Positions 44,300-47,469 of a DNA stretch of 64,000 nucleotides are shown here, piece by piece. The number at the start of each line of letters is the position of its first letter. Positions within the stretch are counted from its first letter, which is position 1. The stretch is from contig NZ_FMCQ01000006.1 of the NCBI RefSeq assembly GCF_900091605.1, forward strand, positions 47,940 to 111,939, written 5' to 3'. The stretch is from Micromonospora tulbaghiae. Its GTDB lineage: Bacteria > Actinomycetota > Actinomycetes > Mycobacteriales > Micromonosporaceae. Below the pieces are notes generated by a model. The model had not been told where the DNA came from and ran no database searches. It saw nothing but the letters and a program-made list of their open reading frames with translations. The position numbers and the translations under genes are program-made.

Positions 44300-45064
44300 A
44301 TGTCGCAGACCGCTCTGTACCACTTCCTCACCGCGGTGCCCGAGGCCGCCGCCATCTGGTCCTTCCTGCTGCTGCTCGCCCTGGGCCTGCTCGCCGCGCT
44401 CGTCGCCCGGCCGGAACGCGACCCCGAGCCGGAGGCCGCCCCCGAACCGGCCGACGCCGACGCCGTCCGCCGCGACGATCTGGTCCGCTACGCCGAGGAG
44501 GTGGCGGTGGCCGCGGCCGGGGCCGCCCAGACGGCCCGTCGCCGCCGGGAGCAGTGGATTGCCGCGCAGGACGAGGCGGACCGGGCCTGGACCGCGTACG
44601 ACGAGGCGGACAGCGCCGCCCGCCGCCTGGCCGGCGCCGCCGCGCTGGGCGCCCCGCGCACCCCGCGCACCCCGGGCGAGTACGCGGCCCGGGAGCGCTG
44701 GCTGCACCACGCCGCCATGTCGGCGCACTGGCGGGGCGACCTGACCGCCCGTCAGCTCGCCGACGTGCTGGCGCACCGCAACGGGTGGGATCCGCGCCGG
44801 CACCCGGCCGAGCAGGAGATCGTGCTGGCCCGCACGGTCAGGGACGGGCGACGGGCCGGATGGGAGCGCGCCGCCGCGCGGGAACGGACGGCCTGGCGGG
44901 ACGCGGAACTGGCCGCCGAGGCCGCCCGGACGCTCGCCGCCGAGGCGTACGCGGCAACCGTGGCCCTGCGGCCCGCTCTGCCGTACCGGAGTGCGACGAC
45001 GAGCGCCCTGCCGGTGCCCGCTGCGGTCCGGAACGCGCGGTGGCGCCCGGCCCGGGTCGGCTGA
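44300..45064 (+). CDS. Membrane-anchored coiled-coil hypothetical protein
   Basis: 254 aa. A single transmembrane segment at about residues 17-37 (IWSFLLLLALGLLAALV) is followed by an acidic patch and a long Ala/Arg/Glu-rich helical region to about 225. It is probably anchored by its N-terminus with a cytoplasmic coiled-coil body. GTGAGG lies 8 bases before the ATG. Family not recognised. It ends 658 bases before the riboswitch-controlled peptidase gene. Confidence 0.7.
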   Translation: MSQTALYHFLTAVPEAAAIWSFLLLLALGLLAALVARPERDPEPEAAPEPADADAVRRDDLVRYAEEVAVAAAGAAQTARRRREQWIAAQDEADRAWTAYDEADSAARRLAGAAALGAPRTPRTPGEYAARERWLHHAAMSAHWRGDLTARQLADVLAHRNGWDPRRHPAEQEIVLARTVRDGRRAGWERAAARERTAWRDAELAAEAARTLAAEAYAATVALRPALPYRSATTSALPVPAAVRNARWRPARVG

Positions 45065-45304
45065 CACGCCTCGTCTCGACCGAATCGTTACCCGGAATAT
45101 GGTGAGCCCGGTCACCCGGGTCACCGAATCGGGCGCGGGGCGCAGAACGGGTCATCGAGTCGCGCAATTGCCGGTCGGCTGCTCGCCGTCTGTCCTGTTT
45201 CCGCCGCCGGGCGCCGTCGAAACTGCTTGTCCCATTGAGTGAAGTCAGTAACCGGGTGTTCCGAAATCTGTTACCGCGGATCACGTTTACGCAGGTGGGA
45301 GCGC
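45065..45304. other. Non-coding upstream region of the riboswitch gene
   Basis: This part of the 657-base gap has no coding frame of note. It holds several GTTACC/GTAACC-like words (about 45249-45295, ending GTTACC...GTTTACG). These resemble the spaced repeats bound by MtrA-type regulators upstream of wall-hydrolase genes; this is a weak visual match only. Confidence 0.3.
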
Positions 45305-45333
45305 TTGGCATGGGACATACCCACCGGTAGTGT
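45305..45333 (+). promoter_or_regulatory. Promoter of the riboswitch-peptidase transcript
   Basis: TTGGCA (45305-45310) and TAGTGT (45328-45333) are separated by exactly 17 bases. Transcription would begin near 45340, shortly before the riboswitch aptamer and about 380 bases before the coding start. Confidence 0.65.
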
Positions 45334-45354
45334 CGGCGCGTCCGATGCGGTAAT

Positions 45355-45520
45355 CGATCGCCGACGGCGACGCCGCACCGACCCGCCTAATCGAGCTCCA
45401 CGAACCGGGGACCCATGAGCAACATCGGGGTGAATCCGCGAGCCCACGGCCCGCGGTAGGGCGTACTTCCCGCCCGAATCCGTCAGCTAACCCGGTCGGC
45501 GGCCACGGAAGGAGTTACCC
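45355..45520 (+). ncRNA. c-di-AMP riboswitch (ydaO/yuaA leader)
   Basis: The conserved ydaO blocks occur in order: CCTAATCGAGCTCCACGAAC, CGGGGACCCA, CGGGGTGAATCCGCG, GTAGGG, TTCCCGCCCGAATCCGTCAG, and CTAACCCGGTCGGCGG before GGAAGGAG. The closing stem pairs CGCCGAC (45360-45366) with GTCGGCG (45495-45501). This class binds cyclic di-AMP, and in actinobacteria it typically precedes genes for wall hydrolases and resuscitation factors. About 200 bases separate it from the peptidase start; CGCCCG/CGGGCG (45610-45627) may form part of an expression platform. Edges are approximate. Confidence 0.9.
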
Positions 45521-45721
45521 CTCTTGCCCACCCCTCGATCGTCCCCCCGCCTCCACGGCACCGCGGTGCCCGCGCTCGCCTGACGCGCGACCGGCAACCG
45601 CCCCCTGGGCGCCCGGCATCACGGGCGTTCCCGATCCCCCGGCCATCCGGCCCCGCCAGCACGTGTGAGTTCCTCCGCGTGCCGGGCCGGCGTGTGCCGC
45701 TCACGCCCCGTGGAGGATTTC

Positions 45722-46561
45722 GTGAAGCACCACCTGAAGCGTCAGCTGCGACGGATCGTCACCGAACGCCCGTACCAGATCATCGCCGGATCGGCCGCCG
45801 CGCTCGTGCTGGCCGCCGGTGCCGGCACCGTCGCCGCCGCCGGTGACGACGCCCCGGTCCAGGAGAACACCGCGGCGGTCGCCGATCTCGGCGCCGCCCG
45901 CCTCGGCGAGCAGCCCGCCAGCCGCGGCGAGGCCCGTGTCGCCGTACCGCAGGCGTCGCCCAGCGCCTCCGCCGCGCCCAGCGCGTCGCCGAGCGCCTCC
46001 CCGTCGAAGAAGGCGGCCGACCCGGACACCACGGCGAAGGCCAAGCCGAAGCCGCCGTCGAGCAAGTCGCTCGACTACGACTACCAGGCGCAGATCAACT
46101 ACTTCTACTGCGGTCCGGCTGCCGTGCGCAACGCGCTCAGCGCCGCCGGCATCGAGCGCAGCCAGGACGCGCTCGCCGGCCCTCTCGGCACCACCGAGAT
46201 GGGCACCAACTCGGCCGAGGACACCACCCGGGTGCTCAACCAGCAGGTCAAGGGCAACCCGTACCGGACCCGCATGATTCCCGGCACTGCCACCCCGGCC
46301 CAGATGGACCGGCTCCAGGCCGACGTGGTCGAGGCGATCAGCAACGGCCGTGGGGTCGTCGCGAACGTCGCCGGTACCGCCACCGACACCAACGGCGGCT
46401 GGCACTCGTTCCCGGGCGGCCACTACGTCGCGGTGGTCGGCTACAAGAACGACGGCCGGACCGTACGCATCGCCGACTCGGCCGACCCGTCGCTGCCCTC
46501 GTACTGGGTCACCACGATCGACCTGGCGCACTGGGTCTCCACGCGCGGCTACTCCGCCTGA
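45722..46561 (+). CDS. Secreted C39-like peptidase under c-di-AMP riboswitch control
   Basis: 279 aa. An N-terminal membrane/export segment (about 19-40) precedes a Ser/Ala/Pro/Lys-rich linker to about residue 117. A papain-like C39 domain then carries Cys130 in NYFYCGPAA, His234 in GGHYVAVVGY and Asp252 in IADSAD. It may cleave peptides or peptidoglycan cross-bridges outside the membrane; no ABC transporter domain is attached, unlike bacteriocin-processing C39 enzymes. The start is a GTG preceded by GTGGAGGA. The upstream riboswitch implies that expression follows cyclic di-AMP, a wall-stress and osmotic signal. Confidence 0.88.
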   Translation: MKHHLKRQLRRIVTERPYQIIAGSAAALVLAAGAGTVAAAGDDAPVQENTAAVADLGAARLGEQPASRGEARVAVPQASPSASAAPSASPSASPSKKAADPDTTAKAKPKPPSSKSLDYDYQAQINYFYCGPAAVRNALSAAGIERSQDALAGPLGTTEMGTNSAEDTTRVLNQQVKGNPYRTRMIPGTATPAQMDRLQADVVEAISNGRGVVANVAGTATDTNGGWHSFPGGHYVAVVGYKNDGRTVRIADSADPSLPSYWVTTIDLAHWVSTRGYSA

Positions 46562-46582
46562 GTCCCGCCCGCCCGCCCCGCT

Positions 46583-46649
46583 GATCTTGTAGTTGTGGCC
46601 CCGTTACAACGGGCAATCGGGGCATCCCGAGGGCCGTAACTGCAAGATC
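46583..46649. repeat. GATC-headed interrupted palindrome (copy G)
   Basis: 18-base arms (46583-46600 and 46632-46649; GATCTTG(T/C)AGTTG...GGCC) pair at 15 positions around a 31-base loop. It begins 21 bases past the C39 peptidase stop, in position to end that transcript before the next plus-strand gene. Confidence 0.68.
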
Positions 46650-46722
46650 GACGGGCTGGTGGGGCGCCGGCTCGGTGGGTTCGGTCTCGCGTGTCGTGTG
46701 CGGGCGGTGGCAGACTGCGCCA

Positions 46723-47469
46723 ATGGGCGACGCGACGGGGAAGCGGCATCTGATTCTCCTGCACGGCATGGGTGCCACCGGCGAGGTGTGGCTGCCCTGG
46801 GCGCCGCTGCTGGAACGCCGCTGGCCCGGCCGCTGGCTCGCCCCCGACCTGGCGGGACACGGCTGGTCGCCGCCGCTCGACGGCTACTCGTTCGAGGCCG
46901 TGGCGCAGCGCGTGGTGGACGGACTCGGCCCGGTCCGGCTCGGCCCCGACGACCGGCTGGTGCTGCTCGGGCACTCGCTCGGCGGGGTGGTGGCGCTGGC
47001 GCTGGCCGCCCGGCGGCGAGGGCTTCCGGTCGACGGGGTGGTCGGACTCGGCATCAAGGCGGTCTGGTCCCCGGCCGAACTGGCCAAGTCGGAGGAGCTG
47101 GCCGCCCGGCCGGTCACCTGGTTCGCCACCCGCGACGAGGCGGCCCGCCGCTACCTGCGCGTGTCCGGGCTCGCCGGGCTGTTCGCCCCGGACCACCCGG
47201 TGGTGGAGGCGGGGCTGCGCCGGGTGGACGGTCGCTGGCGGCTCGCGATGGACCCGGCCGCGTTCGCCGTCGGGGAACCCCGGCTGCCGTCCCTGCTGGC
47301 CGCCACCGATGTGCCCGTGCTGCTGGCCCGGGGCGAGACGGACCCGATGGTGACCGACGCGCAGCTCAAGGAACTGGGCGTGCCGGTGGCCACGCTGCCG
47401 GGGCTGGGCCACAACGCGCACGTCGAGGATCCGGAGGCGGTGCTCGCCCTGCTCGACCCGTACCTCTGA
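46723..47469 (+). CDS. Alpha/beta hydrolase
   Basis: 248 aa. It has LLHGMGATGEVW at about 12-23 (oxyanion), DLAGHGWSPP at about 43-52, nucleophile elbow GHSLGG at about 84-89, the acid region LLARGETDPMV and the catalytic His in LGHNAHVEDPE. It is compact with a small cap, so probably an esterase or lipase-like enzyme of the cytoplasm. Substrate unknown. It converges with the glycerophosphotransferase gene, leaving 6 bases between stops. Confidence 0.87.
   Translation: MGDATGKRHLILLHGMGATGEVWLPWAPLLERRWPGRWLAPDLAGHGWSPPLDGYSFEAVAQRVVDGLGPVRLGPDDRLVLLGHSLGGVVALALAARRRGLPVDGVVGLGIKAVWSPAELAKSEELAARPVTWFATRDEAARRYLRVSGLAGLFAPDHPVVEAGLRRVDGRWRLAMDPAAFAVGEPRLPSLLAATDVPVLLARGETDPMVTDAQLKELGVPVATLPGLGHNAHVEDPEAVLALLDPYL

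Follow-up and report, generated by a model that had tools for sequence, protein, structure and literature searches.

The locus raises the question of how a c-di-AMP riboswitch could reach a peptidase gene that starts 205 nt past the end of the aptamer match and carries an SD (GGAGG) of its own. The first-pass annotation of the window, by which we mean the whole 64 kb stretch of DNA analysed, had described an aptamer that precedes and controls a secreted C39 peptidase. The order of aptamer, promoter and C39 gene was indeed found to be conserved, but the aptamer adjoins the SD of a short uORF and not the ribosome site of the peptidase, and thus the aptamer-side SD in the window serves a 19-codon uORF rather than C39. 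Since this uORF also contains a segment complementary to the C39 SD, the picture of direct control needs a relay in between, and we consider it likely that the c-di-AMP riboswitch controls the C39-like peptidase via a uORF relay. The elements of the locus are the following.

45305-45333, + strand: promoter, with TTGGCA at 45305-45310, 17 nt, and TAGTGT at 45328-45333
45374-45516, + strand: c-di-AMP aptamer RF00379, covariance-model match
45466-45470, + strand: aptamer hairpin loop CTTCC, complementary to GGAAG at the uORF SD, a possible pseudoknot partner
45509-45514, + strand: uORF SD AAGGAG, directly after the aptamer
45524-45583, + strand: uORF, 19 codons from TTG, translated as MPTPRSSPRLHGTAVPALA and stop
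45550-45558, + strand: anti-SD arm CCTCCACGG, inside the uORF at codons 9-12
45584-45707, + strand: GC-rich leader (spacer) from the uORF stop to the C39 ribosome site
45708-45716, + strand: second helix arm CCGTGGAGG, containing the C39 SD
45722-46561, + strand: Peptidase_C39_2 (PF13529) gene, 279 aa, a likely coding sequence with GTG after GTGGAGG

The ydaO/yuaA aptamer was borne out by an Rfam covariance-model scan, the check that had been proposed for it: RF00379 was matched over its full length (model positions 1-134 of 134) at 84.8 bits (E 2.6e-18) against a gathering score of 38, and was the sole Rfam family to reach its gathering score within the window. The source genome holds five RF00379 aptamers (60.4-88.9 bits), and at the other four, namely L001, L002 (NlpC/P60-like), L005 (transglycosylase-like with LysM) and L004, with gene labels assigned by eye, an ORF opens shortly after the aptamer-side SD. 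Pairing of a hairpin loop with the 3′ tail is a feature of RF00379 riboswitches. When the CTTCC/GGAAG loop-SD pairing was evaluated in 34 of 35 loci (L239 was unparsable and left out), permuted partners were as good in 44 of 500 permutations, and the loop-SD pseudoknot appears a weak candidate that is not supported above permutation.

The separate promoter that had been claimed was missed by a strict consensus scan, which did not report TTGGCA-17-TAGTGT, yet it gains support from comparison: at 9 of the 12 hexamer positions, 98% or more of 109 genus loci share the base of the window. The two hexamers are spaced by 17 nt in 83 of these loci, by 18 nt in 9 and by 16 nt in 1, and a matching pair was not found in the remaining 16 of 109. 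Two further conserved stretches were observed nearby. Upstream of the −35 box, at a distance of 10 nt, GTTTACGCAG (45285-45294) has the base of the window in at least 98% of the 109 loci at 7 of 10 positions and is a possible activator site. Between the −10 box and the aptamer (45334-45383), runs conserved at 98% or more, such as GCGACGCCG at 45367-45375, fall outside the aptamer match or at its very start, and may extend P1 or compete with it. No intrinsic terminator was found on the + strand of 45060-46750, which includes the aptamer-C39 interval.

The predicted peptidase matched the PF13529 profile at 70.6 bits (cut-off 24) over positions 1-143 of 143. Alignment of its orthologues found C130 and Q124 kept in all 105, and H234 and D252 in 104 of 105; C130, H234 and D252 (and Q124) are what we take to be the catalytic residues of Peptidase_C39_2. 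The earlier description of a C39 peptidase with an intact Cys-His-Asp triad is therefore upheld, and secretion, the other half of that description, is probable from the look of the N-terminus alone, in which a signal-like segment followed by a Ser/Ala/Pro/Lys-rich linker was recognised by eye. An NCBIfam search of the protein gave no match above cut-off, and phmmer against solved structures gave a sole match, to a low-complexity stretch, with no solved relative found. Its 23 named relatives comprise 21 Micromonospora records, one Micromonosporaceae isolate and Salinispora oceanensis. On the 3′ side of the gene, an inverted repeat at 46583-46649 (GATCTTGTAGTT ... AACTGCAAGATC) was noticed by eye, which is either terminator-like or a dispersed repeat.

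To see how widely this arrangement is held, 121 genomes of the genus were compared, all of which have a C39 match and a DNA match to the aptamer leader. An aptamer precedes the C39 orthologue in 118 of the 121, and a separate uORF lies between them in 116; these 116 genomes provide 118 uORF loci, G034 and G044 contributing two apiece. The two genomes lacking a separate uORF are G059, in which the uORF is fused in frame to C39 and the same arms form a local hairpin (L132), and G081, in which both uORF and spacer are gone and the aptamer-side SD leads into C39 itself (L141); both loci were left out of the 118-locus uORF set. The three remaining genomes are G009, whose contig breaks off close to the uORF, together with G052 and G070, which have weaker C39 matches alone (E 2.7e-54 and 1.6e-59). 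As to the locus set, 128 loci were taken in, of which L068 (G009) has no C39 on its contig and 12 are duplicate sequences, leaving 115; the C39 start was at first unplaced in L037, L053, L064, L142 and L146, which were added later with L276-L280. In G034 (L101/L102) and in G044 (L023/L056), both C39 copies come with an aptamer, a uORF and arms of their own, and the whole module therefore appears to have been duplicated or transferred. No aptamer match was found at L281, the second C39 copy of G091.

A riboswitch-adjacent SD with a short-ORF start codon precedes C39 at all 118 loci in the 116 genomes, and the columns around this SD (45506-45513) have a mean consensus of 99.2% over 108 loci. Under a start-calling rule that admits ATG, GTG and TTG alone, the start codon is GTG at 112 loci, TTG at 3 and ATG at 3, and the called starts have independent support in the middle T of the start column, which is conserved at 98% or more in the 108-locus alignment; the stop codon is TGA at 114 loci and TAG at 4. 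In the window, 138 nt lie between the uORF stop and the C39 start, which do not overlap. The entropies at the three codon positions are 0.58/0.68/0.69 in one set of 45 loci and 0.38/0.50/0.40 in another of 15, and this similarity means that there is no sign of amino-acid selection on the uORF peptide. The uORF as a conserved small protein was rejected on these codon-phase entropies together with the loci that hold the arm in another frame. Judged from the alignments, what is conserved in the uORF is the start codon, the stop codon and the anti-SD arm. The spacer that follows has a mean consensus of 70.1%; within it, 3′ of the uORF stop, a hairpin-like CGCCCG...CGGGCG (45610-45627) has stems of about 80% consensus or more, fairly conserved against the poorly conserved rest.

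The arm in the uORF, CCTCCACGG, is the exact reverse complement of CCGTGGAGG at the C39 SD. Both the MFE and the centroid structure from RNAfold pair 45550-45558 with 45708-45716, whether the leader is folded alone or with the aptamer, and the pairing probability of the C39 GGAGG with the uORF averages 0.93 across the genus, exceeding 0.5 in 103 of 109 loci. Mean consensus is 96.4% in the arm compared with 79.8% in the uORF before it and 78.6% after it, and reaches 98.9% in the second arm. We defined a helix as at least 9 contiguous pairs including at least 3 nt of GGAGG. Such a helix was found with the uORF at 97 of 108 loci, compared with 6.5% of 2160 dinucleotide-shuffled uORFs from the same 108 loci and with 24 of 108 spacers, which are longer than the uORFs. 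Once ten loci had been added, the count for the uORFs became 104 of 118, the other 14 of 118 having no 9-pair contiguous helix. Among the named C39 relatives a helix of at least 9 pairs was found in 17 of 23 loci, which overlap the main locus set and give no independent support; one of the six without it, L247, was mis-scored through a wrongly picked C39 ribosome site.

Natural variation in the arms was then compared locus by locus. Several register variants still pair, namely CCTCCACGG/CCGTGGAGG, TGTTCCTCCAC/GTGGAGGAACA, CCTTCACGGTGC/GTACCGTGGAGG and GGTTCCTCCACGG/CCGTGGAGGAATC. At 97 of 108 loci the uORF frame translates the arm as L-H, and at 7 of 108 (L042, L135-L138, L140 and L144) CCTCCAC is kept in another frame in which the RLHG peptide is gone. 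In L137-L140, L144 and L147, of which L139 and L147 stay in the main frame, pairs on the 5′ side stand in for lost 3′ pairs, (TG)TTCCTCCAC with GTGGAGGAA(CA); L122 and L123 reach 12 pairs via another extension, and L146 has 13 pairs between the uORF and the C39 SD region. Elsewhere the pairing is reduced or displaced: at L148 it has slid to CCACGGTGCCG/CGGCACCGTGG and takes in no more of the SD than its first GG; at L110 a G is lost from the C39 arm, leaving 8 pairs of GTTCCTCC/GGAGGAAC; at L276 the anti-SD arm is lost; and in L032, L034 and L133 no CCTCCAC-type stretch was found in the uORF. In 199 of 200 permutations the arms scored higher with their own partners than with exchanged ones, the margin being small (24.08 versus 23.80) because the arms vary little. 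In a C39-protein tree, which like the C39 alignment holds 105 of 109 rows (4 were left out through a wrongly chosen start), single groups with unusual arms are well supported and five fall together in one weakly supported cluster; some of the register shifts may therefore share an origin.

Plain duplex energy was rejected as proof of the helix, for the GC-rich spacer does equally well. By RNAduplex, the uORF-C39 ribosome-site duplex has a modest median z of −2.0 relative to shuffles, and at most 1 of 100 shuffles is as good in 37 of 108 loci; the mean energies are −24.4 kcal/mol for the uORF and −24.2 kcal/mol for the spacer, with the uORF better in 61 of 108. As this measure fails to set the uORF apart from the spacer, the case for the helix was built on contiguous pairing versus shuffles, conservation, the partition function and the register shifts. 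The consequence of occupying the arm was also modelled. In the window, opening GGAGG costs 7.8 kcal/mol with nothing blocked, 3.5 kcal/mol with a 30-nt block on the arm and 6.7 kcal/mol with a mid-spacer block. Over the 108 loci, the modelled mean is 8.83 kcal/mol unblocked, 6.35 with the arm blocked and 8.03 with the control block; a drop of 2 kcal/mol or more follows the arm block in 58 of 108 loci, compared with 22 for the control block, and one of 4 kcal/mol or more in 31, compared with 2. Since the mean cost is still 6.35 kcal/mol with the arm blocked, other leader structure also hides the C39 SD.

The survey of aptamer leaders before C39 genes suggested in the first-pass annotation thus gave a near-constant association within the genus, and it was extended beyond the genus to 43 genomes, each from a different genus of the family. 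Of these 43 genomes, 24 have a C39 match and 38 have RF00379, and reading the two match tables by hand put aptamer and C39 on the same strand and no more than about 600 nt apart at least 14 times, spread over 10 genera. At 11 of 30 C39 loci in other genera, the aptamer is followed by an SD with a short ORF and then by C39 about 160-440 nt on. One of these 11 (L189) has a uORF-C39 SD helix of at least 9 pairs, in fact of 10, GTACCTCGAC/GTCGAGGTAC; another, L184, has a 9-pair helix over the uORF start-codon region, and at the remaining nine no 9-pair uORF helix was found among the best three helices. At L218, likewise outside the genus, C39 starts straight at the aptamer-side SD. Pattern matches to the CCTCCACGG arm outside the genus were set aside by eye, being CAGCTCACC or CAGCTGACC and not CAGCTAACC; backward-pattern controls also score in this search, and as the matches look like chance, the exact arm looks limited to the genus. 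From these comparisons, the aptamer-C39 link seems to span part of the family, where a short ORF after the aptamer appears common, while the CCTCCAC arm looks like a genus feature and the helix does not look general beyond it. When 101 genomes of the order were searched, C39 matches turned up in 12 from outside the family; 8 of the 12 have no RF00379 match, and in the other 4 no aptamer was found near C39 among the matches listed, which comprised all but one aptamer match in each.

How the parts could work together may be pictured in three steps. By analogy with C. glutamicum nlpC, from which we infer both the ligand response and its direction, c-di-AMP would stabilise the aptamer and lower initiation at the adjacent uORF SD. 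With the uORF untranslated, 45550-45558 would pair across about 150 nt with 45708-45716 and keep the peptidase silent; here complementarity and conservation are observed, and the function is what we infer from them. At low c-di-AMP, ribosomes on the uORF would break the helix and make the C39 SD accessible. What counts would then be that the uORF is translated, not which peptide it encodes, and Rho-dependent termination of the untranslated leader may add to the effect. In MS2-type coat-replicase coupling, a stretch within the upstream coding region pairs at a distance with the downstream ribosome site, and translation opens the pairing; the proposed relay would work in the same way, although MS2 is a phage RNA, has no ligand and is not homologous. 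The c-di-AMP signal probably reaches the peptidase through translation of the uORF.

Among known systems, the C. glutamicum nlpC riboswitch, reported as a translational OFF switch in which the authors suggest that an aptamer CTCC blocks the RBS, is a close one, sharing the aptamer class, the lack of a canonical terminator and a cell-envelope peptidase as target (PMC9960051). It likewise has its SD directly after the aptamer, which in the window is that of the uORF, whereas in C. glutamicum the regulated ORF is nlpC itself, and the portion of PMC9960051 cited here describes no uORF relay. Two M. tuberculosis systems have a uORF. The ppe2 B12 riboswitch masks the SD before a uORF, uPPE2, through which it can drive its gene, ppe2 depending on uORF translation as far as the cited part of PMC11260477 describes it; unlike in the window, the ligand is another and the coupling is mostly termination-reinitiation at an AUGA overlap, in place of 138 nt between stop and start and a proposed long-range helix. 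The pe20 Mbox combines a riboswitch, short uORFs, an anti-SD able to hide a later SD and a Rho part, according to the cited part of PMC12810186, but it has another ligand and the uORF2 under its control encodes a highly conserved small protein, compared with an unconstrained peptide and a large peptidase gene as target in the window. For S. lividans, PMC8079986 already names secreted hydrolases, peptidases and a transglycosylase as targets of its six ydaO leaders, which weakens the first-pass suggestion that a C39 peptidase gives c-di-AMP a different way to tune the envelope; in the portion cited, no uORF and no C39 is named for S. lividans. In searches of the literature, with subscription journals mostly outside them, we found no c-di-AMP precedent for a uORF relay, nothing on a ydaO riboswitch in Micromonospora, and no c-di-AMP riboswitch with a C39 peptidase.

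Several other explanations account for part of these observations. For S. coelicolor, PMC9960051 recounts a c-di-AMP riboswitch that attenuates transcription independently of Rho, a mechanism other than the first step proposed here and one that counts against it, while in the portion cited of PMC8079986 the S. coelicolor riboswitch seems to act on translation initiation. The aptamer in the window might respond to its ligand in that style, by attenuating transcription of the entire leader, with uORF and helix secondary, but no terminator-like site was seen on the + strand, and the conserved SD and start codon beside the aptamer and the conserved arm to the C39 SD would be without a role; we regard this as improbable. 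The same lack of an intrinsic terminator over 45060-46750 is in favour of termination by Rho, in which the untranslated C-rich leader would be ended before C39, translation of the uORF would protect it, and the CCTCC-rich arm would belong to a Rho site instead of acting as an anti-SD. This we rate unlikely, if the least so of the alternatives, for it leaves unexplained why register and frame shifts have not cost the arm its complementarity to the C39 SD region.

The 205 nt between aptamer match and C39, together with a uORF peptide free of constraint, would also fit a riboswitch that controls the uORF alone or nothing, with C39 driven by a separate promoter within the spacer and its linkage to the aptamer surviving from an earlier target. 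Against this stand the linkage itself (118 of 121 genus genomes and 10 other genera), the conserved helix to the C39 SD, the spacer being the least conserved part among those compared, and the loci L141 and L218 with C39 directly at the aptamer-side SD, exceptions which suggest that the aptamer can control C39 directly; such an independent promoter is hardly more credible than attenuation. Least probable of all, and very much so, is a leader peptide acting as sensor or effector, by stalling at Pro/Arg-rich codons or as a product. An RLHG.AVP core does recur in many loci, but RLHG is the translation of the anti-SD arm in that frame, the loci with the other frame keep the arm and lose the peptide, and entropy is alike at the three codon positions.

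The uORF relay thus stays our preferred reading. With somewhat less assurance, though still leaning in its favour, we read the locus as a second-messenger riboswitch acting at a distance, which would gate a disposable uORF conserved only in its start, its stop and its target anti-SD, in a relay kept almost throughout Micromonospora (Salinispora L260 included) with register and frame shifts and two collapsed lineages (L132, L141). If this is true, a c-di-AMP riboswitch would work via a uORF relay in which, by the comparative evidence, the message lies in translation and not in the peptide, and the natural deletions would be ready-made controls for how a translational riboswitch governs a gene whose ribosome site is about 200 nt off. 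Annotation easily misses a short ORF of this kind, which makes the peptidase seem beyond the reach of the riboswitch; with the relay recognised, the C39-like peptidase would join the probable c-di-AMP targets in actinobacteria.
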